Assembly (NCBI GenBank): GCA_014381555.1
Contig: JACNLO010000056.1
Coordinates: forward strand, 1-64,000
Direction: 5' to 3'
From: Planctomycetota bacterium
GTDB lineage: Bacteria; Planctomycetota; Phycisphaerae; Phycisphaerales; SM1A02
DNA: 64,000 bases
Below the pieces are notes generated by a model. It was not told where the DNA came from and ran no database searches. It saw only the letters and a list, made by a program, of their open reading frames with translations. The first letter of the stretch is position 1. The number at the start of each line of letters is the position of its first letter. Below, piece after piece: positions 2,555 to 16,976 of this stretch. The translations under genes and the position numbers were made by a program.

Positions 2555-3459
2555 TCAATAAGAGGTTCGGAAGATAGGGTGGAAGAGCGATAGGCATCGT
2601 AAGAGTAGAGAATGATGGCAATCCAAATCAGCGCAAAGACGATGATTTGGATTGCTCCGAAGGGTTCGTTGAAGAAAATAATGGCAAGAAGAAGTTGCCC
2701 AGTTGGTGCAATGTATTGCAGAATGCCCATAGTCGAGAGTTGCAACCTGCGAGCGCCACTTGCAAAAAGCAGCAGCGGCATAATTGTCACAAATCCACCT
2801 AGTAATAACCCCGCAATAATCCAAAATGATGCCTCTGGAAGAAGGCTCTCTCCTTTTGCCACAAACCAAACTTGAACAGCCAAACAAACCGGAAATGTCA
2901 AACCCATCTCAACTGTCAAACCCTCTATTGACTCCACCTCCATTGTTTTGCGAAGTAGCCCATACATCCCAAACGAAAAAGCAAGCGTAATAGAAATCCA
3001 AGGAAGAGAACCCTGCGCAACAGCAAGAAAAGTAACTGCACAGCCGGCAATTGCAACAGCAATCCATTGCAAACGACTAATTCGTTCACCCAAAAGTAAA
3101 AAGCCAAGAGCTACAGAAAAAAGTGGGTTGATGTAGTAGCCAAGAGATGACTCGGTTAATCGATTCCAAACAACTGCTAATACAAAGACAATCCAATTAA
3201 TTGAAATGAAGAAGGTTGAGCCAAGAAGTAGCAGCGAAGTACGTTTGTCTTGAAGAGACCTCATACATTGCATTAACTTTTTTCTATAGACAAGCAACAA
3301 AATCAAAAGTGGTAGACCCGAGAGCACTCGCCAAACAAGTAACTCAACAATCGGAACCATAATTAACAATTTAAAATAAAGTGGCGTAACGATTGCCCAC
3401 CAAAGATACGAACCGACAGCAAACATCACCCCCGCTGAGGACTTAGATATCTTTGTCAA
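2551..3459 (-). CDS. rarD: RarD-type EamA-family permease
   Basis: About 302 residues with ten hydrophobic segments. The N-terminus ([21 protein letters not shown]) and blocks such as [23 protein letters not shown] and [10 protein letters not shown] are characteristic of RarD, a drug/metabolite-superfamily inner-membrane transporter whose substrate is not settled. The likely start is TTG at 3459, overlapping the TGA of the upstream CoxIII-like gene as TTGA; ATG at 3426 is the alternative, and family alignment favours a few residues before GVMFAV. It is the last gene of the leftward nitrate island, and any functional link to respiration is unclear. Confidence 0.8.
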
Positions 3460-4658
3460 GCGATGAGATACCAGAGTGGGAATAGGAAGATCCAAATCAC
3501 ATCGACAACGTGCCAATACAAACCACCACACTCAACTGCTGAGTAGTACCGCTTCGTAAAATCACCGCGTTGTAATCGCCACATCAACCATAGCAAGACA
3601 ATCATTCCAACTATTACGTGAATACCGTGCAATCCTGTCATCAAGAAATACAAACCAAAGAAAAGGTGTGCATTTGCCGGTTTGTGTTCATCGAGTTGAG
3701 GAACTGCAGGTCTTTTATAGACCGCCATTCTTTGGGCTTCGGACGCACTTTCAGGAGCAAGACCTGTTGGTGCTTGCATTGCGTTTGGTACAGAAGAACG
3801 TGGGAGAGAATCAAGAAATGACTTTGGTTCTTCCTCTTCAACGGCCGCAACTGGAGCAACTTCTATCTCTGCTTCAGTTTCCGTTTCTACAATCTCAGTT
3901 TCAGAATTATCCGTTGTGGCAATCATTAATGTACGAAGGTACGCAATGATGTCCATAATACCTGCATCCTTAAGCATAGGATTGCCGCCCTTCGGAGGCA
4001 TTTGCAATTGCAAAATACTATCTGGAGCATTTGCTGGTCGACCAACTTTAATGAACTCTAAAAGTTCAGCATCGTCACGGTCTAGAACAAATGCACTTGT
4101 ATTAAGAACTGTTCCCTGTCCGGGAATTCCTTCGCCAGCAGCACCATGGCATGAACGGCAAGTTGCATCCCAAAGACCTTTACCAACAGAAGCGTCACCA
4201 GCTAAAGCTACAGTTGCACCGCTTCCTCCTCCACTTCCACCATCATGTGAGACCTCATAAAAACCCATGCCACCAACAAGATGGTCGTGGAATTTATGTT
4301 GGTACTCAACTGACTTAATCGCCATAAAAATAGCAGCGCAAACAAACGTAATCCCCAGTGCCATTGCAGCCATACGGCGCATGCCCTTTTGCACATAGGT
4401 AATTGCCATAGCCATTGTCAAACTACTAATGAGTAGAACAGCTGTGTTTGCAGCACCGTATCGTTCATCTAAAAACTGCTCACCCCACACAAAGAGGTCG
4501 GGATGATTTGCGCGAAAAACTGCATAACCGCAAAACAATCCACCAAACAACAATATTTCTGTTGCAAGGAATAACCAGATACCCAACTTCGCGGCGTCGT
4601 GCTGTTGCGACATATCGCGATAGTGGTGTTGGACATTTGGCTCGTGGCATTCAGACAT
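3456..4658 (-). CDS. Cytochrome c oxidase subunit III-like protein with an inserted cytochrome c domain
   Basis: A 400-residue membrane protein starting at ATG 4658, which has GGAG 9 bases upstream. Residues 25-116 contain three membrane segments with CoxIII features ([25 protein letters not shown]). A Gly-rich hinge then leads to a cytochrome c domain at ~155-247 with haem motif CRSCH (167-171) and a probable axial Met (M220 in LQMPPKGG). A long acidic linker (about 251-320) follows, and the last two CoxIII helices ([34 protein letters not shown]) close the protein. The haem domain would sit in the periplasm. No coxA, coxB or norB is nearby. It may be a NorE/CoxIII-like partner of a haem-copper oxidase or NO reductase encoded elsewhere. 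It follows narK2 in the island. Confidence 0.88.
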
Positions 4659-4729
4659 ATCGTAAAACTCCAAAAATCAGGTGACCCATGTGCGGGTTTG
4701 TGACTAGAAAAGGAGAAGTATAGCCACTT

Positions 4730-6346
4730 TTAGCACTTGATTTCGGCGTTTTTCCGAGCATAAAACCACCAATTTACAACTAAACAAGTCAAGTAGTAGC
4801 CAGCAAAGCCATATAAGGCGTACTGCGGGGTTCCTGCTTTGATTTGGGTAGCGAAAATCTTAGGAATTAGGAAGGCACCATAAGCCGCAATCGCAGCCGT
4901 CCAGCCAAGGACTGGTCCGCGTTGGTCACGATTAAAGATGACGCCAATCATCCTAAATGTGGAGCCGTTGCCAATACCTGTCGTCGCAAAGAGCAAGATA
5001 AAGAGGAGCAAGAATGGAATGAAGTATTGCTTTGGATCTTCAGAAGTCATTGCTAAAGAAACAAAGTAACCAGCACCAATCGTTGCACCAATCATAATGA
5101 TGGTGTCCCAGTGGGTAACACGGGCACCGCCAACTTTGTCAGACAGCCACCCTCCAAGCGGTCGAATCAAAGCGCCAACACCAGCACCAATCCAGATGAA
5201 TCCTGCTGAGGAAAGTCCTGTTGATTGCCCAACGTTCTCGCCAACTGCGATTACACCAAAGACATCATCAATCAATTTAGGAAACGCATTTGCGTAACCA
5301 ATGAATGAACCAAATGTCATCACATATAGATACGTCATAACCCAGTTGTGCTTCTCTCTAAAGATACTAAATTGACCTTTAAGGTTTTCCTTGGTTTCTT
5401 TTGGAGTCAATAACCTCATCGCAAGCAAGGTGACGACAACCGCAACAACAACAACAAGGAAGGTTTTAATAAGAACAGGGAATCCGCCCCAAGGAATAAT
5501 CAATAAGAAAATACCAACTGTAGCGCCAATATAACCAAGGATTGTGAGCCACAAATATTTTGCAACTGCAACAGGAGTCGAGCCGCACTTGTGGAATGGC
5601 ATGTTATGCATCATCAAGAATGCAAGAATCGCAAAGAAGGCAAGGATAGGAACCCAGACAAGTCCTGCGTTTGCAATAAACATCGTTGTTTGCGAACCCT
5701 CTGGACCATAGGTATATCCGTCACCACTAAGTGAACCAAAGATTGGGAAAGTGATTGCAAACGGAATCAAGAATTGCATCACACTCACGCCAAGGTTGCC
5801 AATGCCAGCGTTTAATCCAAGAGCAAGACCTTGGTCTTTCTTTGGATAGAAGAAACTAATGTTTGACATGGAAGAAGAGAACGCCCCGCCACCTACACCT
5901 GATAGCGCTGCGAGAAGAATGAAAACATAAAACGGTGTTGTGTGATCTTGCAAGGCAATACCTGCACCAAGTGCGGGCAGCATCAACAAAATCGTAGTCA
6001 TGAACTTCACGTTCCGACCACCGCAAATCGCAATCATAAAAGAGTTTGGAATTCGCAACGTAGCCCCCGCCAAACCTGCAACCGCAGGTAACGTAAAGAG
6101 TAGAGCTCGGTACCCATTGTTGTCATAGAACTGCCCGTCATTCATAAATGTAAAGTTGAATAAATCACCACCACTACCAAAGTGAATCTTCTGAATATAT
6201 TTGGCAACCATGCCCCAGTAAATCCAAACGGAGAACCCAAGAAGAAGGTTTGGAATTGATACCCAAAGGTTTCGGGTAGCAATTTTCTTACCTGTGCTTT
6301 CCCAAAAGCCCTGATCTTCTGGATCCCATTTTTCTAACTTTGACAT
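4730..6346 (-). CDS. narK2: NarK2-type nitrate/nitrite transporter (MFS)
   Basis: A 538-residue major-facilitator protein with twelve membrane segments. It carries both nitrate-signature motifs of the NNP family: LNAGIGNLGVSVMQ (about 178-191) and TTGIGNGSTFRMIG (about 455-468). It also has the substrate-binding arginines in TLRIPNSF (R98) and LIRPLGGWLSDK (R395). In known nitrate respirers the NarK2 branch usually exchanges nitrate for nitrite across the inner membrane. It lies 21 bp downstream of the other NarK gene and upstream of the CoxIII-like gene, all read leftward, so it is probably co-transcribed. Start is ATG 6346. Confidence 0.92.
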   Translation of the reverse strand: MSKLEKWDPEDQGFWESTGKKIATRNLWVSIPNLLLGFSVWIYWGMVAKYIQKIHFGSGGDLFNFTFMNDGQFYDNNGYRALLFTLPAVAGLAGATLRIPNSFMIAICGGRNVKFMTTILLMLPALGAGIALQDHTTPFYVFILLAALSGVGGGAFSSSMSNISFFYPKKDQGLALGLNAGIGNLGVSVMQFLIPFAITFPIFGSLSGDGYTYGPEGSQTTMFIANAGLVWVPILAFFAILAFLMMHNMPFHKCGSTPVAVAKYLWLTILGYIGATVGIFLLIIPWGGFPVLIKTFLVVVVAVVVTLLAMRLLTPKETKENLKGQFSIFREKHNWVMTYLYVMTFGSFIGYANAFPKLIDDVFGVIAVGENVGQSTGLSSAGFIWIGAGVGALIRPLGGWLSDKVGGARVTHWDTIIMIGATIGAGYFVSLAMTSEDPKQYFIPFLLLFILLFATTGIGNGSTFRMIGVIFNRDQRGPVLGWTAAIAAYGAFLIPKIFATQIKAGTPQYALYGFAGYYLTCLVVNWWFYARKNAEIKC

Positions 6347-6367: not shown

Positions 6368-8161
6368 TTAGAGAATGACTTCGGGTTCTGTTTCGGAGTC
6401 AAGACGGAGTAAGTGATCGACTGACAGTGGCCCTGCGCCACGCCAGATAAACAAAACAAGAGTAAAGAATGTGAAAGCTGAGAGTTGGAAGTCAACGTTT
6501 GCAAGGAAACTTCCTTCCCATGCACCTGTGAGTGATACGACTGTGGCGCCAGCGAGAATAATCGCGTTTGCAGCAGCAGCTACTCTGGTTGCTATACCAA
6601 ATACAAGTGCCGAACCGCCAATCACATGGGCAAATACAACTGACCATGCAATCATTTCTTGCCCTTGGGCAAGTTCGGCCCCTCCAAGATTTAAAGCTGA
6701 CTCTAAGGTCTTCATATTCATGATGAAGTATACACCCTTGACTACCAACGCAACACCAAGGTAGATACGAAGTGCATCCATTGGGCGAAGGTGGGCAAGT
6801 CCTGGGATGAGTTCGTGGACTGGCTTACGGTCGACCCGTTCAGCTTTGCGTCGTACCATTGCAGCATCGAATTTTTCTTTTGCGTCTGTTTCTTGCTCCG
6901 GTCGGAATCTAACTAAAAGCGAGAAGAAAGCAGCACCGCAAACAGCAAACCCAAGAATTAGGAGTGCCTGTTGGTAAGTTGTACTCTCTGAACGAACAAG
7001 GAAACCAGCAGCAACAGCGCCTGCATTACCGCCTGCGCCAACGATACCAGCAACTGAACCGATATATTTTTTGTTAATAAACGGAACTACTGAATACGTT
7101 GCACCTTCAGACATTTGCACGAACAAACTAAAGATAATCATCATTGGAATTGCAAGTGCTAGTACTTTCATTTGAGAGAAGAAGATGAGCGCAACGCCTT
7201 CGATTAATAGCGCGATAAAGAGCCACTTCACACGACCTTTAAGCCCGCCCTTCATGACGAACCTGTCACTTATAAAACCACCCGTTGTACGAGCAAAAAT
7301 ATTCATTAAGCCAAAGAGACCCGCAACAAGACCGGCTGTCTTAATACCAAGCCCGAATTCATCCATGTAGTAAATTGCTGCGATATTGTTGATTGTTAAT
7401 TCAATACCGAAACATGCAGCATATACGACGAATAGCGCCCAAACACGATAATCAGAAGCCGCTTTCCAAAACGCTCCTTTAACTTTTTCAGGTGGATCGT
7501 ATTCACCTTTTTCTCGTAATTCCTTAATGTTCCCATTCGGGAAGTCAGTAGTGAAGAAGTAATACGCAAGACCAGTTAAGAAACAAACACCACCAGCGAC
7601 AACCATTGCCAAGCGCCAACTTGATGCGTCTGTAAAGCCAACCCAAATAAAGGCACCAAAGACGAGTGGCATTACCATTTGCGTTACGCCGCCACCCAAG
7701 TTACCCCAACCAGCAGAGGTTGCGTTTGCAGTACCCACAACGTTTGGTGCAAACATCACAGATGTGTGATACTGCGTAATGACAAAGGAAGCTCCAATTA
7801 CACCGATACCTAATCGGAAGAGCATAAATGACATGTAGTCGTTTGATAAACCGATTGCCATTACCGGCAATGAACCAATGAGTAGTAGCCATGTGTATGT
7901 AATCCGTGGACCAATTCGATCGCAAAGCCATCCAATGATTAAGCGAGCGAAAATCGTAATTGCAACCGAAGCAATAATTGTGTTACCAATTTGTTGTTTC
8001 GTCAGGTCAAGTTCTTCTCTGACCACTGCCATAAGCGGTGCAATTCCAAACCATGCAAAGAAGCATAAGAAGAATGCAAACCACGACATGTGGAATGCCC
8101 GCATCTGGCGGGTTTTCAATGAAAATAGATTGATACTTGTGGCTTTGTTTTTAATGTCCAT
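6368..8161 (-). CDS. NarK1-type nitrate transporter fused to a C-terminal DoxX-like membrane domain
   Basis: A 597-residue protein. Residues 20-420 form a NarK-family MFS transporter with the nitrate signatures GWGNLGGGVTQ (151-161) and GAGGNAGAVAAGF (375-387) and conserved arginines in LFRLGIG (R116) and FARTTGGFISDR (R291). After a charged linker (about 420-458, AMVRRKAERVDRKP) there is a four-helix domain (about 462-580). This has features of the DoxX family: RIYLGVALVVKGVYF, HVIGGSALVFGIATRVAA and LFIWRGAGPLSVDHLL. NarK1-type proteins are generally nitrate/proton symporters. DoxX-like domains occur in quinone-linked or redox membrane proteins, but their role here is unknown. It is the first gene after a 161-bp gap behind narI. 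Confidence 0.88.
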   Translation of the reverse strand: MDIKNKATSINLFSLKTRQMRAFHMSWFAFFLCFFAWFGIAPLMAVVREELDLTKQQIGNTIIASVAITIFARLIIGWLCDRIGPRITYTWLLLIGSLPVMAIGLSNDYMSFMLFRLGIGVIGASFVITQYHTSVMFAPNVVGTANATSAGWGNLGGGVTQMVMPLVFGAFIWVGFTDASSWRLAMVVAGGVCFLTGLAYYFFTTDFPNGNIKELREKGEYDPPEKVKGAFWKAASDYRVWALFVVYAACFGIELTINNIAAIYYMDEFGLGIKTAGLVAGLFGLMNIFARTTGGFISDRFVMKGGLKGRVKWLFIALLIEGVALIFFSQMKVLALAIPMMIIFSLFVQMSEGATYSVVPFINKKYIGSVAGIVGAGGNAGAVAAGFLVRSESTTYQQALLILGFAVCGAAFFSLLVRFRPEQETDAKEKFDAAMVRRKAERVDRKPVHELIPGLAHLRPMDALRIYLGVALVVKGVYFIMNMKTLESALNLGGAELAQGQEMIAWSVVFAHVIGGSALVFGIATRVAAAANAIILAGATVVSLTGAWEGSFLANVDFQLSAFTFFTLVLFIWRGAGPLSVDHLLRLDSETEPEVIL

Positions 8162-8322: not shown

Positions 8323-10104
8323 TTAGTTATTTGGAAGGATTTCTTCCATTACGTAGTGAACAATTGCCCATCGATCATCGACTGGCATCGTATCGAATGA
8401 CATCATTAACTGACCTCCACCGTAAGCACCTGGGACGCCTGTTGTGATTCGAATAAAAATATCCTCCGCTTCAGCGCCAACTTTCACATTGCCTTTAGAC
8501 AAGTCAGCAGCGATAATCACCTGAGGTAATTCAGGAGCAAGTTCTCGCCAACTGTAATTAAGTTGATCTCCACCACTGCCATCTGCACCGTGACATGAAA
8601 CACAGTTTTGAGCATATAGTTCTGCTCCCCTTTGTACGCTTGCTTGAGTTGCTGTTGGTGCTTCGCCTACGTGTATTGTGTTACCTGGCTGTGGTCCATC
8701 TACTCTAAACTCATTTAGAACATCAACAAGTGAGTCAATTTGTGCAACTGTTAGGTCTGGGAACGCTGGCATGCCCGAATCATCTAGTCCCTCTGCGATT
8801 GTTCTAAACAAATCCTCATCTGAAGCAACGCCATTATCGGTAGAAACGAAGTGATACGTTGCGCTTACAGTTCCATCTGAAACAAAGTTTCTAGGAAGTG
8901 CAGAGAAGGTTGGGGAATCCATACCTGCGCCATCACCATAGCCGTCTTCGCCGTGACAACGAGCACACTGACTTACATACAAAGGATAGCCAGCGAGAAC
9001 ATCACCCTGTGGTGTCTCAATACTCCTTGCAACACCGTCAGCAGTTGCTGAATTTGGCGAACCAAGCAAACCGCCTGAGATAAGGAAACCAATAGCAACG
9101 ATTGCAAGGCCATATACGAGCCATGATTTATCGCTTCGAAGACCAAGTTCCCACTTTCGTTGGAATCGGTACTTTTGCGTTCTCACTGATTGCGGAACAC
9201 GCACAAAATAGTTCACTGGGAAAGTCCAGAAGTGAACGAGTTTTGTAAATGGGAAATACGCGAAGAACAAAAGAGCAAGGAATACGTGCAGTTTCGTGAG
9301 GAAACTTGCAGATTCCATAAGTTCAGGCTGTGGTGTTAAAGTCCACAGACTCGCTGCCCAAGAAGAAGCTGTGTAGGTAATACCAAATATTTTATCAACG
9401 ACTACTTGGTATAAAGCAATACCAACGATTGCAATGAGGAAACATTGAACGATGTAATCTTCTGGACGACTCATTGCGCGAACTTCTGCAGAACCGATTC
9501 GGCGGACAAGCGCCATGATGGAACCGACAAGGACAAGTAGTCCGCCTATAAGCGCGCTCCAAAAGAAGAAGTCAACCGCTGAACGCGAACCCATAACTCC
9601 GCCAATTAAACCGACAACGTGTCCAGCAAGCAAGAGGACGAGCCCCCAGTGGAACATAGTTGATGCAACACCAAGCAATTGCCGACCAAACAAGCCACTT
9701 GCTCTTGTACTCCAAGAGTATGGGCGAGTCGCCATTCGGATAATTGGGACTACGAAGAACAATACGATACAGATGTAAGGGAATACTCCCCATAAGAAGT
9801 TGTTCATGGCTGTTTTTGCTCCTGCGTCAGAATAATTTCTGAGACCTTCGATAAATCGTCTTTCTTGTTGGACAAGAACTTGGGTGTCTGTTGGAACGAC
9901 AGTTGTCGTTGTTGTTTCGGTAGATATTGGTGAAGTAAAAGTTGGCGGTGGTGGAACGACTGCTTCAACTGCAGCAGTAGTAGTACCCCCACTAACTTCA
10001 TGCGATGGACCTTGTGCAATAAAACGCACCATGAACCATGCGAGCACGGTTACGATAACCAACGAAACAAAGAATGTCGTCGATTCTGCTTTGCTTGCTT
10101 TCAT
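8323..10104 (-). CDS. narI: NarI (nitrate reductase gamma, cytochrome b) fused to a dihaem cytochrome c
   Basis: A 593-residue membrane protein. An extra N-terminal helix (11-31) and a Thr/Pro-rich linker precede a complete NarI domain (about 101-305). All four b-haem histidines of NarI are present, in FHWG (H152), GHVV (H162), KLHVF (H273) and LVHFW (H291). A further helix (about 328-347) leads to two cytochrome c domains with CARCH (380-384) and CVSCH (501-505) and likely axial Met in SGMPAFPD (M445) and near FDTMPVDD (M573). The predicted topology puts the c-haems in the periplasm, so quinol electrons could reach periplasmic c-haems as well as NarGH. Normal NarI is ~225 residues. Its ATG overlaps the narJ stop (ATGA). 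Confidence 0.93.
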   Translation of the reverse strand: MKASKAESTTFFVSLVIVTVLAWFMVRFIAQGPSHEVSGGTTTAAVEAVVPPPPTFTSPISTETTTTTVVPTDTQVLVQQERRFIEGLRNYSDAGAKTAMNNFLWGVFPYICIVLFFVVPIIRMATRPYSWSTRASGLFGRQLLGVASTMFHWGLVLLLAGHVVGLIGGVMGSRSAVDFFFWSALIGGLLVLVGSIMALVRRIGSAEVRAMSRPEDYIVQCFLIAIVGIALYQVVVDKIFGITYTASSWAASLWTLTPQPELMESASFLTKLHVFLALLFFAYFPFTKLVHFWTFPVNYFVRVPQSVRTQKYRFQRKWELGLRSDKSWLVYGLAIVAIGFLISGGLLGSPNSATADGVARSIETPQGDVLAGYPLYVSQCARCHGEDGYGDGAGMDSPTFSALPRNFVSDGTVSATYHFVSTDNGVASDEDLFRTIAEGLDDSGMPAFPDLTVAQIDSLVDVLNEFRVDGPQPGNTIHVGEAPTATQASVQRGAELYAQNCVSCHGADGSGGDQLNYSWRELAPELPQVIIAADLSKGNVKVGAEAEDIFIRITTGVPGAYGGGQLMMSFDTMPVDDRWAIVHYVMEEILPNN

Positions 10105-10784
10105 GGTCGCACCTCTGGCATATTCATGTCATTCATAATTTCAACTGGTTCACTTTCATTGATTACGTTCAAAGAAACATTACCTTTTTGTTCATCGGGC
10201 GATTTCCACATAGGAACATCGCCAATCAGTTGGAGATCCTCTGCAGCAACTAGTTCAATCGCAGGAATAAGCAATCCGTAAATCGAATCAAATTTTGCAA
10301 ACCCTCTTGCAAGTGGCGCCATGCCTGCGAGCAAATATTTTTCAATAAGCCGGCGACGAAGACCAAGCGTGTCTTCTTTCGAACTCTCAAGAGAAAGCGC
10401 CATAAATTCAAGCATGACTGGTAGGTAATCTGGCATTTCAATCGACCCAAGGTCAAATCCAAAATGTTCATACATACCACTGAGTTCAAGCATAAATGCG
10501 TTGCGTGGCGAAGTGCTAATACCACTGCATGTTGATGGTTCTTCAAACATGTGCGTGCCAAGATACAGTGGGCATGGAGGTGAAAGTTCAAGCGTCGAAA
10601 CATATTCATGGCTTGAAGTAGCACCATCAGATTCAATGAACCTTTCAACTTGTTCAGCGACGTGTGGCATGCACAATCTCGTTTGGTCAAGCCACATTGC
10701 CAAACATGCATCATTGCGACGTGTTGGATTCACAAACAATTCTGCAAGCAAGCGATATGCGGTTGAAATATCACGCGTTTCCAT
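10101..10784 (-). CDS. narJ: NarJ nitrate reductase assembly chaperone
   Basis: A 227-residue cytoplasmic protein of the NarJ/TorD type. The characteristic segment MPDYLPVMLEFMALS (about 127-141) is clear, as is the early YRLLAELFVNP. NarJ proteins guide molybdenum cofactor and Fe-S insertion into NarG and its docking on NarI. It sits 2 bp after narH, and its stop overlaps the narI start, the standard narGHJI order. The C-terminal 40 residues are acidic and variable, as usual. Confidence 0.9.
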   Translation of the reverse strand: METRDISTAYRLLAELFVNPTRRNDACLAMWLDQTRLCMPHVAEQVERFIESDGATSSHEYVSTLELSPPCPLYLGTHMFEEPSTCSGISTSPRNAFMLELSGMYEHFGFDLGSIEMPDYLPVMLEFMALSLESSKEDTLGLRRRLIEKYLLAGMAPLARGFAKFDSIYGLLIPAIELVAAEDLQLIGDVPMWKSPDEQKGNVSLNVINESEPVEIMNDMNMPEVRP

Positions 10785-10786
10785 GT

Positions 10787-12328
10787 TTAGCTTCCAACCT
10801 CTTCGCGGTTTCCGTGAAAAGTAGTGCTTCGTTGAGGCATATTACTTGGAGTCATTTCGCTAAAGCCAGCGTAGCCACGTTCGATATAAGGTGCGTTATC
10901 TGTTCGTTCTCGCCTTGTTGTCGGAACAACAAATCGTTCGTGGTAGTGAGCAAGTGAAAGAAGCCGGTGCATATCTTTCGCGTCTTGCTCTGTCAGACCC
11001 ACTTTTTCGAGGACATCTACATCCGCCACGCCATCGACTCGGACACTTCGACGATATCCGCGAATGGCAAGTTGACGAAGAAGTGCAACTTCAATTTGGC
11101 TATCATCTCCTGCCGAGAACATCGAAGAGAGGAACTTGATGGGCAATCGGAATTCATCCATGTTCGGGAGAACTGTTTTACCGCCGACCATCGCTAGCGT
11201 ATCTGAACCATCAGCTTTTGTTTTCACTGGGCTTTCAGGTGGAATGTAGAAAAGCGCAGGTAACGTTCTAAACTCTGGGTGGAGCGGAAGTGCAATCTTC
11301 CACTCTTTCACCATGCGGTAGACCGGTGATCGCTTACATGCATCGAGCCATGAATCACTTATACCTGCTTCTTTTGCAGCAGCGATTACTTCAGGATCAT
11401 GTGGATCAAGAATCAATTCGCGTTGCGCATCGACAAGTTCGTTTTCTGGGAGGTTCGCAATTTCAGCGACCTTATCCATATCGTACAGAAGTGGACCCAT
11501 GTAACGAATCCGTCCGGGGCAACTGTGGAAACATGCTGGTGGTTGCCCTGCTTCAAGCCGTGGGTAACACAAAAGGCATTTTTCCATTTTGCCTGTTTTC
11601 CAGTTGTAATACGGTTTTTTGTAAGGGCAAGAAGAAACGCAGTACCGCCATGCTCGACATCTATTTTGGTCGATAAGCACTACACCGTCTTCTTCTCGTT
11701 TGTAGCCAGCACCTGATGGGCAAGCGGCAACACAACAAGGATTCATGCAGTGATTACATATTCGTGGAAGGTACATGATGAATGAATCACGAAATTTCAA
11801 TAGTGCATCACGTTCTGAGTCGCTCATGCCTTCGAAGTTGATGTCCATTGCACCTGTGCCTTCAGTCGTTGCACCTGCACCATTATCTTCCCAGTTCACT
11901 GCGTATTCAATTGGAATATCTTCTTTACCAGTGATCATCGACTTTGGTCTTGCGACAGGTTGTGAGTGTACTGTTGGTGTTGTGGAATGCAAATCTTCAT
12001 ACGTAAAAGTAAATGGACCTTGCCCGTAATACTCTTCCATTTGAGGCATCACGGGGTTGTAAAACAAGTTCATCATCGTCCAGAACTTTGAACCAATGTT
12101 CAACTTCGGACCATGGCCTTTAGTTTGGCTCCAACCGCCCTTGTACTTTTCTTGATTCTCCCATTGTTTTGGGTAACCAATTCCGGGCTTTGTTTCTACA
12201 TTGTTCCAGAACATGTACTCAGCGCCTTCGCGGTTTGTCCATACGTTCTTGCATGCCACTGTACACGTGTTACATCCGAGACATTTGTCAAGGTTGAACA
12301 CCATTCCCATTTGTTGTTTGACCAGCAT
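10787..12328 (-). CDS. narH: NarH nitrate reductase beta (iron-sulfur) subunit
   Basis: A 513-residue electron-transfer subunit. The first cluster-binding motif is C-x2-C-x2-C-x3-C at 16-26 (CLGCNTCTVAC). Further Cys groups occur in CNHCMNPCCVAAC, CRAWRYCVSSC and CLLC with a later CFHSC. The Trp in CRAWRYC replaces a Cys, the signature of the [3Fe-4S] site in NarH. It carries electrons from NarI haems to NarG. Start is ATG 12328 with AGGAG upstream. The gap to narG is 77 bp. Sequence blocks such as FNLDKC, NNVETKPG and WENQEKYKGGW are near-identical to enteric NarH. Confidence 0.95.
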   Translation of the reverse strand: MLVKQQMGMVFNLDKCLGCNTCTVACKNVWTNREGAEYMFWNNVETKPGIGYPKQWENQEKYKGGWSQTKGHGPKLNIGSKFWTMMNLFYNPVMPQMEEYYGQGPFTFTYEDLHSTTPTVHSQPVARPKSMITGKEDIPIEYAVNWEDNGAGATTEGTGAMDINFEGMSDSERDALLKFRDSFIMYLPRICNHCMNPCCVAACPSGAGYKREEDGVVLIDQNRCRAWRYCVSSCPYKKPYYNWKTGKMEKCLLCYPRLEAGQPPACFHSCPGRIRYMGPLLYDMDKVAEIANLPENELVDAQRELILDPHDPEVIAAAKEAGISDSWLDACKRSPVYRMVKEWKIALPLHPEFRTLPALFYIPPESPVKTKADGSDTLAMVGGKTVLPNMDEFRLPIKFLSSMFSAGDDSQIEVALLRQLAIRGYRRSVRVDGVADVDVLEKVGLTEQDAKDMHRLLSLAHYHERFVVPTTRRERTDNAPYIERGYAGFSEMTPSNMPQRSTTFHGNREEVGS

Positions 12329-12405: not shown

Positions 12406-15400
12406 TTAGGCGTTTGGCACTAAGTGTGCGTCCTTATCTTGATACAGGACTTTTTTCGGCCCAGCTGCAAGAGGCATCTTTCGAATAAGAACAGCACAGT
12501 CACGTTCCGATGGACTTGGACCTTGATAATTCAAGAAGTATGTCCAGTTTGCGTACCCACCCATCATGCAGGAAGGGTTCATCATGACTCTTGTTGGTGC
12601 GTTGTTGTTACCGCCACGAAGATCTGTTACGCCACGCTTCCGTGCAAGTGGGGAGAATGGAACTGCAACATGTCGTTCAGATGAGTGGTACATAATGACC
12701 GACTCACGTGGGATAGTTCCACTGAGGACTGCACGAACATTGCAAATACCGTTTTCGTTATAAACTTCGACCCAGTCGTTGTCTTTCACGTCGATTTCTG
12801 CTGCGTCTTCGTCGTTAATCCAAACCACTTGGCCACCGCGGAACAAATTCAACATTTGCCAAGTGTCCCAGAACATCGAGTGAATAGACCATTTACCATG
12901 CGGAGTCATAAAGCGGAACACTTTTGAATTTGCTTCTGCTGTACTTGGTGAACAGTCACCAATTTTTACCATGTCAACCGGTGGCTTATACGTTGGCATC
13001 GATTCGCCTAATTCACGATACCCACGATGGTCAAAGTAAATTTCTTGACGGCCAGTAAGCGTATGCCATGGTTTTAATCGTTCAACGTTCATCGACCAAG
13101 GCGCATAAGTTCTTCCTGGGCATTCAATCGCTGACCAGTGTGGTGATGTCAGACTACGCCGTGGTTGCGATTGCAATTCAGGATAGTGATGATGTATTTC
13201 TTGGTCGCCTTCAACAAGGTCTGCAAGTGGAAGACCAACTCGTTTTTCAAGACCTTGGAAAATTTGATGTGAAAGTTCACCGTCTGATTCTGGTGAAATT
13301 CGTAAAATAGTTTCACAAACTTGCTCAGCGCGTTCAAGTGACGAACGGCCATTTATTTCTCCAACCAAGTAACTTTCTTTCAGTTTTTCGCAAACTTCAG
13401 TCAGATCGCCCATGATTCCTTTGCATCCATATCCGTTTGGTTTACAAACGTTTGGACCAAAGGTCACATACCGTTCAAGTATTTTTGTGTAATCACGCTT
13501 AACGATTTTAACTTTCGGGAACGTCTTACCTGGAATGGCTTCACATTCACCGTTGTACCAATCGTATATTTCGCCCATAGGTTGCGCCATTTCATCTTTG
13601 GAGTCAGTGATCAATGGTTGCATCACCATGTCTTCAAACTCATCAGGCATGTGCTTTTCAGCAAGTTTGCTAACTTTTGCAGCGACTTCCTTGAATGCTT
13701 CCCAGTCGTGCTTCGCTTCCCATGGTGCATCATGAGCTGGAGTAAATGGATGGAAGAATGAGTGAAGGTCAGAGCAGGTCAAGTCGTACTTTTCATACCA
13801 ATGCGCGGTTGGAAGCACGATGTCTGAATAGTTTGCAGACGAATCCATACGCAAGTTAATGTTTACGACAAGATCAAGTTTGCCAATCGGCGCATCTTTG
13901 TGCCACTCGACACCTTTCACTAAACCCTCTGCACGATCTTCGCCAAGCACGTTGTTGTGCGTACCGAGCATGTGCTTCAAGTTGTATTCGTGACCACGCA
14001 TACTTGTACCGATGAGGTTGCCACGCCAAATCCAAAGAACCTTTGGATGGTTTTCTTCAGCATCAACATCTTCCAGAGCAAACTTGTCTTTGCCTTCAGA
14101 GAATTGTTTTGCAACCCAGTTTGCAACTTCTTCTTCAGAGTTTGCGCCTGCTTCTCGAGCTTCTTTTAGATACTCGATTGGGTTTTTCTTGTTCACTTGT
14201 GGATAGAACGGCATCCAACCATTTCGAACGGACATGAGGTATTGATCCGCAGCATGACTGCCACCCTTCTCTGGGAATTTTTCAGCCCATGGTGCCCAAA
14301 TTGGGTCAAGAATCATACCGTCGTACCGCCACTGGTCTGTATTGAAGTAGAAGAACGACGTACTGTTTTGATGCCTTGGAGGTCCACCCCAGTCAGCTGC
14401 ACCACCGAGCGTGCCGATTGCTGCGTATGGTCGAATTTTTTCCGTTCCAACATACGAATGGAAGCCACCACCGTTGCGTCCCATGCAACCTGTGAGTATT
14501 CCCATCACTGCCATCGCACGGTGAATCAATGGACCACCGTGGTACCAGTGCAAGGTGCCCGAGCCTGTAATGAACATGGACTTGCCCTCAGTTTTTTCTG
14601 AGTTTTCAGCCCATTCTCTTGCAACACGAATCACAAGTTCTCGGTCAACGCCGGTTTCTTGTTCTTGCCATGCTGGCGTGTACGCTTGCGTTGCATCATC
14701 ATAATCTTTTGGATACGCGCCCGAAAGTCCTCGATTCACGCCTAGGTGAGAAAGCAACACATCAAACGCAGTTGTTACGATGACTTCTTCTCCGCTTGCG
14801 TTTGTCACACGTTTTACAGGAACACCACGTTTTACAGTAACTGAATCCTTACCCTTACCCTCGGTTGCACCAAGCGTTGTATCAAATGTGTCAGTGAAGT
14901 CAGCAAAATTTACTTGCACTTCTTCAAACGTTCCATCATCACCAATACAAGTTAGCATTGGGTCAAACTCTTCACCTGCGACATCTTTATTGTCTAAGTT
15001 CCAACGGCCAGTATTTTCTTCTTCCCAACGATACCCAAGAGTACCAAGTGGAAGTTTTACTTTGTCGGTGCCTTTCTCGAGTTGGATGAGTTTCCAATCA
15101 GCGTTTTCTTCGCCTGCATAATCAGTGAAGTCAGTTGCTCGCATAAAGCGACCGGACAAGTATGAACCATCTTCTTGTTTATCAAGTTGAACAACAAACG
15201 GAAGGTTAGTAAATTGTTTTACATAGTTATAGAAGTATTCACTTCGGCGGTTGATGTGGTACTCTTGCAGGATCACGTGAATACAAGCAAGCAAGTACGC
15301 TGCATCCGTTCCGGGACGAACAGGAACCCAAAGGTCCGCGAATTTCGTCATGTCAGAATAGTTCGGAGCGAGATTGACAATTTTACCGCCGTTGTACTTA

Positions 15401-16185
15401 TGCTCAGAAGCGAAGTGTGCATCTGGCGTACGCGTCATTGGTAGGTTTGAACCGACAACCATCCAATAGGTTGATTGATACCAATCCGCCGCTTCAGCAA
15501 CGTCTGTTTGGTCGCCCCAAATCCACGGCATAATGTGTGGAAGGTCGTGGTACCACTCGTAAAACGAGAGCATCGTGCCACCGAGCAAGTTGCAAAAACG
15601 GTGGCCAGAAATGAAGCTCACCATACTCATCGCGGGAATTGGCGAGAACGATGCGATGTGATCCGCGCCGTACTTCTTTACTGTATGAATAATAGACGCC
15701 GCCCAAATGTCGGTTGCTTTATCCCAACTACCACGGCGCCATCCAGCTTTACCACGAGCATTGCGGTATTTTTTCTTGCGTTCTGGATCTGCCTCGATTG
15801 CTGCCCATGCTTCAACGGGGTCTTTACCCTTGGCGATTTCTTCTTCGTACATTTCGAGAAGAACGCCACGAATGTAAGGGTATTTAGGACGAACTGGACT
15901 GTAAGGGTACCAAGATGCAGAAATGCCACGCTGACAACCGCGTGGTTCGTAACTTGGTGTTTCAGAGTTGATTTGAGGCCAGTCGGTTTTTTGAAGTTCC
16001 CAACAAATCAGACCATTCTTGACAAAGACTTCCCAAGAACATGAGCCAGAACAGTTCACACTGTGGCTTGTTCGAACCGAACGGTCATAGGACCATCGTT
16101 CGCGGTAAAAATCTTCCCAGTCTCTGGGCTCGTCAGCGATTCGGAACCAGCGTGATGCTGCTCCATTTGAAGTTCCTGCGCTCAT
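12406..16185 (-). CDS. narG: NarG nitrate reductase catalytic (molybdopterin) subunit
   Basis: A 1259-residue molybdenum enzyme that reduces nitrate to nitrite. The FS0 cluster ligands are visible as H41, C45, C49 and C84 (HSVNCSGSC; EPRGCQRG). The Mo-ligating Asp is D214 in SFYEWYHDLPH. There is no twin-arginine signal; the N-terminus MSAGTSNGAASRWFRIADEPRDWEDFY resembles cytoplasmic bacterial NarG rather than the exported archaeal type. Blocks such as SPIPAMSMVSFISG and TRTPDAHF support the call. Its ATG overlaps the stop of the upstream MIP18-like gene (ATGA), so the two are translationally coupled. Confidence 0.97.
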   Translation of the reverse strand: MSAGTSNGAASRWFRIADEPRDWEDFYRERWSYDRSVRTSHSVNCSGSCSWEVFVKNGLICWELQKTDWPQINSETPSYEPRGCQRGISASWYPYSPVRPKYPYIRGVLLEMYEEEIAKGKDPVEAWAAIEADPERKKKYRNARGKAGWRRGSWDKATDIWAASIIHTVKKYGADHIASFSPIPAMSMVSFISGHRFCNLLGGTMLSFYEWYHDLPHIMPWIWGDQTDVAEAADWYQSTYWMVVGSNLPMTRTPDAHFASEHKYNGGKIVNLAPNYSDMTKFADLWVPVRPGTDAAYLLACIHVILQEYHINRRSEYFYNYVKQFTNLPFVVQLDKQEDGSYLSGRFMRATDFTDYAGEENADWKLIQLEKGTDKVKLPLGTLGYRWEEENTGRWNLDNKDVAGEEFDPMLTCIGDDGTFEEVQVNFADFTDTFDTTLGATEGKGKDSVTVKRGVPVKRVTNASGEEVIVTTAFDVLLSHLGVNRGLSGAYPKDYDDATQAYTPAWQEQETGVDRELVIRVAREWAENSEKTEGKSMFITGSGTLHWYHGGPLIHRAMAVMGILTGCMGRNGGGFHSYVGTEKIRPYAAIGTLGGAADWGGPPRHQNSTSFFYFNTDQWRYDGMILDPIWAPWAEKFPEKGGSHAADQYLMSVRNGWMPFYPQVNKKNPIEYLKEAREAGANSEEEVANWVAKQFSEGKDKFALEDVDAEENHPKVLWIWRGNLIGTSMRGHEYNLKHMLGTHNNVLGEDRAEGLVKGVEWHKDAPIGKLDLVVNINLRMDSSANYSDIVLPTAHWYEKYDLTCSDLHSFFHPFTPAHDAPWEAKHDWEAFKEVAAKVSKLAEKHMPDEFEDMVMQPLITDSKDEMAQPMGEIYDWYNGECEAIPGKTFPKVKIVKRDYTKILERYVTFGPNVCKPNGYGCKGIMGDLTEVCEKLKESYLVGEINGRSSLERAEQVCETILRISPESDGELSHQIFQGLEKRVGLPLADLVEGDQEIHHHYPELQSQPRRSLTSPHWSAIECPGRTYAPWSMNVERLKPWHTLTGRQEIYFDHRGYRELGESMPTYKPPVDMVKIGDCSPSTAEANSKVFRFMTPHGKWSIHSMFWDTWQMLNLFRGGQVVWINDEDAAEIDVKDNDWVEVYNENGICNVRAVLSGTIPRESVIMYHSSERHVAVPFSPLARKRGVTDLRGGNNNAPTRVMMNPSCMMGGYANWTYFLNYQGPSPSERDCAVLIRKMPLAAGPKKVLYQDKDAHLVPNA

Positions 16186-16976
16186 GCGTCGCTCTCCTGC
16201 TTAGGTTTTGTTGTTGTTACTTGTTCTACACCTTCTGGAATTTGGATATCACACCCAATTTGGAAGGCCTCTATAAATGGTCTAAAATCTCTTGGAGTTC
16301 CGTATACGGAAACAACGGCTTTTCGTTGTTCGTCATACACGAGGTTCACAACGACGTTGCGTCCAACTGGATGCGATCGTTCTGAACCATCTCCGAACGT
16401 GTCTTCGTGCATTGCTTGAATGGCGACGTACATGAGACCTGCGGGATGTTTCTGCCACCATAGTTCAAAGTGCCAATCAAGAAGTTGTACTGTTGATTCA
16501 CCACTTTCTATGGAAGCATCGCTCGGATCAACATCCCATTGCATGACAGGTGGGTACCCTTCCCAATGTTCATCTGGAATTTCAGCTTCTGGTGCCATTT
16601 GCTGATCGGGTCCAAACTCACCGTAACCAATTTCTTCAGCAATACCTGTGCCCATTGCTGTATCGGTTTCAGAAAGAATGTTCAGTGAAACACCATCTCG
16701 ACCGTGACTAGTTACATCTGCTCTCTTTTCTTCTGGTTTGTCCCATGTCACAGAGACGCGTTCAACACCATCAAGTGAAGCAAGTTCGCGTTCAATTGCA
16801 CCAGCCATAGCTTGATGTTCAAACGCCTCAACTTCTGGTTGCGAAAGTTTTACCATCGCCCGCCCATCAATAAGTGCAACGTCTTGCACTGTTCCTGATG
16901 CAACAATGTTCGCGCCCAGTTTCGGGTCGTTCATTGTCTGTAATTTTGACCAAATTGTTTCTTCTGTACAAATCAT
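16182..16976 (-). CDS. MIP18/DUF59-domain protein heading the nar operon
   Basis: A 264-residue protein starting at ATG 16976 with TAGGAG upstream. Residues ~8-80 (WSKLQTMNDPKLGANIV, then LASLDGVERVSVTW) fit the MIP18/DUF59 fold of Fe-S-cluster assembly factors, though the usual Cys is not seen. Residues 90-264 form a domain I do not recognise, rich in Trp/acidic residues (EHWEGYPPVMQWDVDP, HFELWWQKHP). It is coupled to narG by an ATGA overlap and is the first gene of the operon, which suggests a role in maturation of the nitrate reductase Fe-S clusters or in quality control. That role is inference. Confidence 0.7.
   Translation of the reverse strand: MICTEETIWSKLQTMNDPKLGANIVASGTVQDVALIDGRAMVKLSQPEVEAFEHQAMAGAIERELASLDGVERVSVTWDKPEEKRADVTSHGRDGVSLNILSETDTAMGTGIAEEIGYGEFGPDQQMAPEAEIPDEHWEGYPPVMQWDVDPSDASIESGESTVQLLDWHFELWWQKHPAGLMYVAIQAMHEDTFGDGSERSHPVGRNVVVNLVYDEQRKAVVSVYGTPRDFRPFIEAFQIGCDIQIPEGVEQVTTTKPKQESDA

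Follow-up and report, generated by a model that had tools for sequence, protein, structure and literature searches.

A CoxIII-like protein with an inserted cytochrome c domain: a candidate haem-bearing subunit III of a planctomycete caa3 oxidase

Main finding

The window analysed here, the whole stretch of 64,000 nucleotides of planctomycete DNA, contains a gene for a five-helix CoxIII in which a cytochrome c domain sits between helices 3 and 4 (Table 1). The product is probably a true subunit III with a tethered haem c, which has taken over from ordinary CoxIII in the one caa3 oxidase of its host and would add a point of electron entry. Of the three subunits in the oxidase core, subunit III is regarded as the one that carries no cofactor; a strictly conserved haem c on it, in a protein that is the sole subunit III of some lineages, would, if true, open a way in for electrons from the side of subunit III.

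Domain organization and predicted fold

Besides the ATG start listed in Table 1, an in-frame TTG at 4673 is an alternative start of the fusion gene and would give a protein of 405 amino acids. Pfam searches matched COX3 (PF00510) in two stretches (E 2.3e-18; 67.4 bits, cut-off 23.8), together with Cytochrom_C (residues 159-244, E 4.4e-9) and Cytochrome_CBB3 (E 7.6e-8), both above cut-off, while no FixP_N domain was found by Pfam in the protein. The best NCBIfam relatives are subunits III of the CyoC/CtaE type, all under their cut-offs. AlphaFold2 (AF2) predicts five long helices (residues 16-51, 65-90, 94-124, 330-364 and 373-399) and a separate, compact helical cytochrome c domain (residues 156-244, block pLDDT 79-92), whose placement relative to the helices is undefined in the model; residues 136-151 (hinge) and 249-322 (linker) are modelled as disordered. 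Foldseek comparison with CtaE of Corynebacterium (7qhm_F) gave a TM-score of 0.82 by target length for a first, shallower model and a weaker full-length match (TM-score 0.62) for a second, deeper AF2 model of higher confidence, with E >0.001 in both cases.

The original prediction, made from the letters of the window, had placed CRSCH and an axial Met inside an otherwise intact CoxIII, and this is confirmed by Pfam, AF2 and the invariance across 36 sequences described below; the Gly hinge before the haem domain and the acidic linker of ~70 residues after it were also recovered. From these motifs the protein would be expected to carry attached haem. A motif in the linker, LPxSSxPxAxxAPxGL, resembles the linker of haem-less planctomycete CoxC. 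The loop of COX3 that holds the insert has a predicted size of 213 residues, with 15 K/R against 32 D/E. Because this loop is acidic and K/R are enriched in the TM2-TM3 (3 K/R in 12 residues) and TM4-TM5 (4 K/R in 20) loops, assigned by charge to the cytoplasmic side, the insert with its haem domain is predicted to face the periplasm, rather than lying on the cytoplasmic side, the placement that would be at odds with the original prediction.

Table 1 Features of the fusion gene and of the adjoining nitrate island (positions in the window).
Feature	Position	Strand	Details
CoxIII-cytochrome c fusion gene	3456..4658	(-)	400 aa + stop; start ATG at 4658
COX3 N-terminal half, TM1-TM3	4251..4658	(-)	residues 1-136; Pfam COX3 and AF2 helices
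Gly-rich hinge	4200..4250	(-)	residues about 137-153; low confidence, disordered in AF2 model
Monohaem cytochrome c domain	3918..4199	(-)	residues 154-247; PF00034/PF13442
CRSCH haem-binding motif	4146..4160	(-)	residues 167-171
Axial Met220 in QMPPKGGNP	3999..4001	(-)	
Acidic disordered linker, ~70 residues	3699..3917	(-)	residues about 248-320
COX3 C-terminal half, TM4-TM5	3459..3698	(-)	residues 321-400; Pfam COX3
NarK-type transporter, directly upstream of fusion	4730..6346	(-)	order kept in genus g34
Second NarK-type transporter with fused C-terminal DoxX domain	6368..8161	(-)	
NarI with extra membrane helix and two fused C-terminal cytochrome c domains	8323..10104	(-)	
NarJ	10101..10784	(-)	
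NarH	10787..12328	(-)	
NarG, no Tat signal	12409..16185	(-)	
FeS-assembly-domain protein, first gene of co-directional nar-fusion run	16185..16976	(-)	

Conservation and distribution of the fusion

All 13 genomes of the genus share the full-length architecture, as do 18 others among the 181 of the family (13 of 45 genera); it is therefore due neither to chance nor to misassembly. The genomes compared are MAGs, two of which (G003 and G008) have some contamination. The G003 bin holds two CoxIII-cytochrome c copies (L065 and L066), one with nar genes and one without, reflecting either a true duplication or mixed strains. Residues C167, C170, H171, M220, G224 and N226 are invariant across 36 fusion sequences. 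Values of dN/dS, which are approximate because the more divergent pairs approach saturation at synonymous sites, were 0.066-0.077 (haem domain), 0.015-0.073 (COX3 halves) and 0.13-0.27 (linker), pointing to strong purifying selection on both haem domain and COX3 and to its relaxation in the linker. Comparison of 34 CoxC with 30 fusions revealed 54 conserved COX3 positions common to both sets, including E34 and the WHxVDxxWIFLFP motif, and none specific to the fusions.

At strict thresholds, the fusion was found in 10/397 genomes of a class-wide sample and 4/392 of a phylum-wide sample. The architecture is thus not common in planctomycetes, and the statement in the original prediction that c-type haem is rare on subunit III is upheld. 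Close relatives come from marine Phycisphaerae MAGs (the SI047_bin22 protein is 89% identical), and a limited contig scan outside Planctomycetota gave haem-less CoxC only.

A caa3 operon without coxC

The window contains no coxA, coxB or norB, as had been stated in the original prediction, and the cognate catalytic subunit was sought in the rest of the genome. The source genome (G000, 97.7% complete) has exactly one COX1 and one COX2, both on contig C64, in a caa3 operon that follows the genes of alternative complex III (ACIII), in the order ActBCDEF-Sco-CoxB-CoxA-CoxD. CoxA and CoxD are only ~12 bp apart, which leaves no room for coxC in this operon, and the sole PF00510 match in the genome is the fusion. 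CoxB has CuA ligands and a CQSCH haem c motif. The COX1-family protein is CtaD-like and constitutes caa3 subunit I; it has YSHPAVY where the helix-VI glutamate would stand, which we take to indicate the A2-type oxidase family. It is the one COX1-family protein in G000, where neither a NOR (norB) nor ccoN was found. A second, divergent COX3-like gene follows CoxD in most planctomycete caa3 operons (L081 10500-11129 and equivalents) and is absent in G000.

coxC is missing at the CoxA-CoxD junction in 9/9 genus members with a readable junction, and the same gap is seen in G030, G031, G032, G183 and G188. In G031 and G183 the fusion is the sole COX3 match, G030 and G032 have a relocated haem-less coxC elsewhere in the genome, and G188 (87% complete) has no COX3 match of any kind. 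Among fusion-less family genomes listing both genes, coxC lies directly after coxA in 90 of 93; three fusion-less genomes likewise have no adjacent coxC, so loss of operon coxC does not require the fusion. Nor is replacement of CoxIII universal, since several relatives hold both operon coxC and the fusion. G001, G004 and G008 have a further A-type oxidase, with a subunit III of its own. It is on this genomic evidence that the replacement of CoxIII rests.

Gene neighbourhood in the genus and beyond

In the window the fusion lies on one strand with the genes of a nitrate island, in the order FeS protein-NarG-NarH-NarJ-NarI-NarK-NarK-fusion, and the 71 bp that separate the fusion from the preceding gene yielded nothing resembling a terminator. 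The source genome has a second NarGHJI cluster (L145, contig C14, 252-6429; the contig ends just after NarI), the NarI of which is 68% identical to that of the window. Assignment of the gene to a nitrate island stands for the window, where it is nar-adjacent, and for relatives with nar or nxr linkage, but it does not define the gene, as most genus members keep the fusion at this locus without nar: in 8 of 13 (G001, G004-G010) it has no adjacent nar genes and lies between flanking EamA and methionine sulfoxide reductase genes. Other NarI matches in the genus are limited to G002, G003 and G011, plus fragments in G012 and G008. The view that the nar island alone explains the fusion was rejected because the nar-less members keep the gene; nar linkage was afterwards partly reinstated by genus g34, G130 and G131.

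In genus g34 (G184 and G186; partly G183 and G189) the order NarI-NarK-NarK-fusion is as in the window. G130 and G131 have a divergent nar cluster, separated from the fusion by an Rrf2 regulator, and in this cluster too the FeS-assembly-domain gene precedes NarG. In G042, G446, G720 and G760, from three families, the fusion is followed by an EBdh-type cytochrome with two haem motifs and then NxrA, with NxrB and a chaperone downstream where the contig allows. NxrA of G042 matches Kuenenia NXR subunit A with 1451 bits over its length and carries an RR signal. Fusion-headed nxr-type clusters are located at L073, L194, L226 and L227, in three planctomycete families. Neighbours of the fusions in G024, G034, G048, G130 and G131 are diheme cytochromes, a porin and an EBdh-cytochrome, the G035 fusion adjoins cbb3 genes, and Rrf2-type regulators are found beside many fusion genes. 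A protein bearing two c haem motifs recurs as the partner, although none was found in the stretch examined in G021, G030, G031, G623 and G703.

Linkage to nar or nxr is genuine but not obligatory, and ancestral rather than accidental, since the nearest relatives elsewhere are nar-linked, in one genus with the same order, and other fusions lie in nxr operons. COX1 proteins of ~800 aa in some relatives were considered as fused A-type partners and rejected, as they are CcoN-CcoO fusions. Such proteins, joining CcoN and CcoO of a cbb3 oxidase in a single ~800-aa chain, are encoded at L086 (5891-8302), L116 and L117.

Origin of the fused paralogue

On the COX3-core tree, the operon coxC genes of the family form their own clade (support 100/99), and the window fusion clades with nar-linked fusions of genus g34, G130 and G131 (support 100/98). 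Because these clades are separate, the fusion of the genus derives from a fused paralogue and not from operon coxC; movement of operon coxC followed by gain of a haem domain within the genus is ruled out by this tree. The genus has lost operon coxC and relies on the separate fused paralogue. A single fusion clade was neither supported nor rejected by the first COX3 tree (AU p 0.178), and the larger COX3-core tree leaves the backbone open, with six changes, the starred branches forcing two in terms of fusion origins. The fusion of G152 is placed among haem-less CoxC from its own lineage and could reflect either a second insertion or gene conversion. In haem-less planctomycete CoxC the insertion site already has an extended loop and a similar linker motif. 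A small monohaem cytochrome c in the source genome (L092, contig C77, 7389-7745) is 44% identical to the inserted haem domain; it is probably a lipoprotein and adjoins a CcoG-like ferredoxin gene. This free-standing protein may show what the donor of the haem domain looked like.

Proposed role and alternative explanations

We propose that the fusion serves the single caa3 oxidase behind ACIII as its subunit III, and genomic complementation supports its assembly with CoxA and CoxB. That assembly, the attachment of haem, the electron path and the identity of the donor are putative. The haem c on the outward loop of subunit III would stand between ACIII and CuA, its hinge and linker being flexible enough to let it move back and forth from a donor to the CuA site of subunit II. 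In every genus member ACIII would act as donor, joined, where present, by NarI of the adjacent nitrate reductase with its two c haems. In the solved ACIII-aa3 supercomplex of Flavobacterium johnsoniae, contact runs through the five-helix subunit III (PMC8361435), which would put the haem at the seam between donor and oxidase. Many oxidases lose activity during turnover once subunit III is lost (PMC8361435). The paralogue may have originated as an accessory subunit linked with nitrogen-oxide modules (Nar, Nxr), from whose c haems it could take electrons in nar- or nxr-bearing relatives, and have become the sole subunit III in the small-genome genus. Two points temper this proposal: the fusion gene lies outside the oxidase operon, and CoxB already has a haem c motif, so that a second tethered haem is not strictly needed.

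In the genus of the window, a COX3 scaffold that acts as a membrane anchor for a Nar/Nxr cytochrome c (or EBdh-cytochrome), without assembly into an oxidase, would leave caa3 with no other subunit III that we could find there. Such an anchor would fit the nar/nxr gene order kept across genera and families, and the ordinary coxC often retained in the caa3 operon by relatives with nxr-linked fusions. However, the fusions keep every conserved COX3 position and show no change of their own, a conservation that an anchor alone would not require, and the fusion persists in the eight genus members without adjacent nar genes. We regard an anchor role as unlikely overall, disfavoured in the genus of the window and less so for relatives keeping both genes. 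A working subunit III whose haem domain is a passenger, or a redox or NO sensor, with no role in electron delivery seems quite improbable: the haem motif of CoxB and the Rrf2-type regulators adjoining many fusion genes speak for it, but the haem ligands are invariant, dN/dS is ~0.07, the fusion has no output domain, and the genes beside it encode electron-transfer proteins, often carrying two haem c motifs. Proteins of the NorE type, which are CoxIII-like, are found in nor clusters, and the window gene adjoins nar genes; an accessory role like that of NorE, in nitric oxide reduction or denitrification, is nevertheless very improbable in a genome whose only COX1-family protein is caa3 subunit I, with no NOR found, and for a protein whose best NCBIfam relatives, though below cut-offs, are of CyoC/CtaE type.

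Beyond the preferred reading of the fusion as haem-bearing subunit III of caa3, it is possible, and we suggest this tentatively, that the fused subunit acts as an adapter plugging the c haems of Nar/Nxr (NxrC-cytochrome c, NarI-cytochrome c) directly into an A-type oxidase, with no need for a diffusing carrier. Oxygen respiration in planctomycetes outside the anammox group would then be fed by Nar/Nxr through the oxidation of nitrite or quinol, and in the genus of the window the adapter would be the permanent subunit III. The direction of the reaction catalysed by planctomycete Nxr and Nar is debated, and the fusion is a concrete candidate link from these enzymes to oxygen. Should the adapter function in this way, nitrite-oxidising respiration could be tested directly in marine and wastewater planctomycetes.

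Comparison with known systems

No description of a CoxIII-cytochrome c fusion was found in the literature searched, a set outside which most subscription papers lie, and within that set a fused subunit III with its own haem c is a previously undescribed variant. NxrABC clusters are reported from non-anammox planctomycetes (PMC10732223), and the part of that paper covered here makes no mention of a CoxIII-cytochrome c gene heading them.

As in caa3 oxidases, where haem c is on subunit II, an oxidase subunit has a monohaem cytochrome c built covalently into it, on the (here predicted) periplasmic side. The CoxB of the source genome is itself of the caa3 kind, whereas the second haem c, that of the fusion, is on subunit III and is inserted between two helices instead of being terminal. 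CcoP, the 'subunit III' of cbb3, resembles the fusion in having a cytochrome c domain of the CBB3 Pfam family, but is not homologous to CoxIII, while the scaffold of the fusion is a true COX3 (PF00510). Scaffold and insertion site are shared with, and the linker motif is similar to that of, haem-less planctomycete CoxC with an extended TM3-TM4 loop, which differs in having a loop of ~85-140 residues and no haem, in lying inside the caa3 operon and in forming a separate clade. The five-helix subunit III and the ACIII genes beside the cox genes are shared with the ACIII-aa3 system of F. johnsoniae; unlike the usual haem-less CoxIII linked to ACIII, the fusion has ~180 additional residues, bearing haem c, that would lie on the side predicted to contact ACIII. 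In the role proposed here it would be analogous to the diheme c protein QcrC of the actinobacterial bcc-aa3 supercomplex, in that a tethered cytochrome c takes the place of a soluble carrier from complex III to CuA; there, however, the haem c is on complex III, and in the fusion it is on oxidase subunit III.
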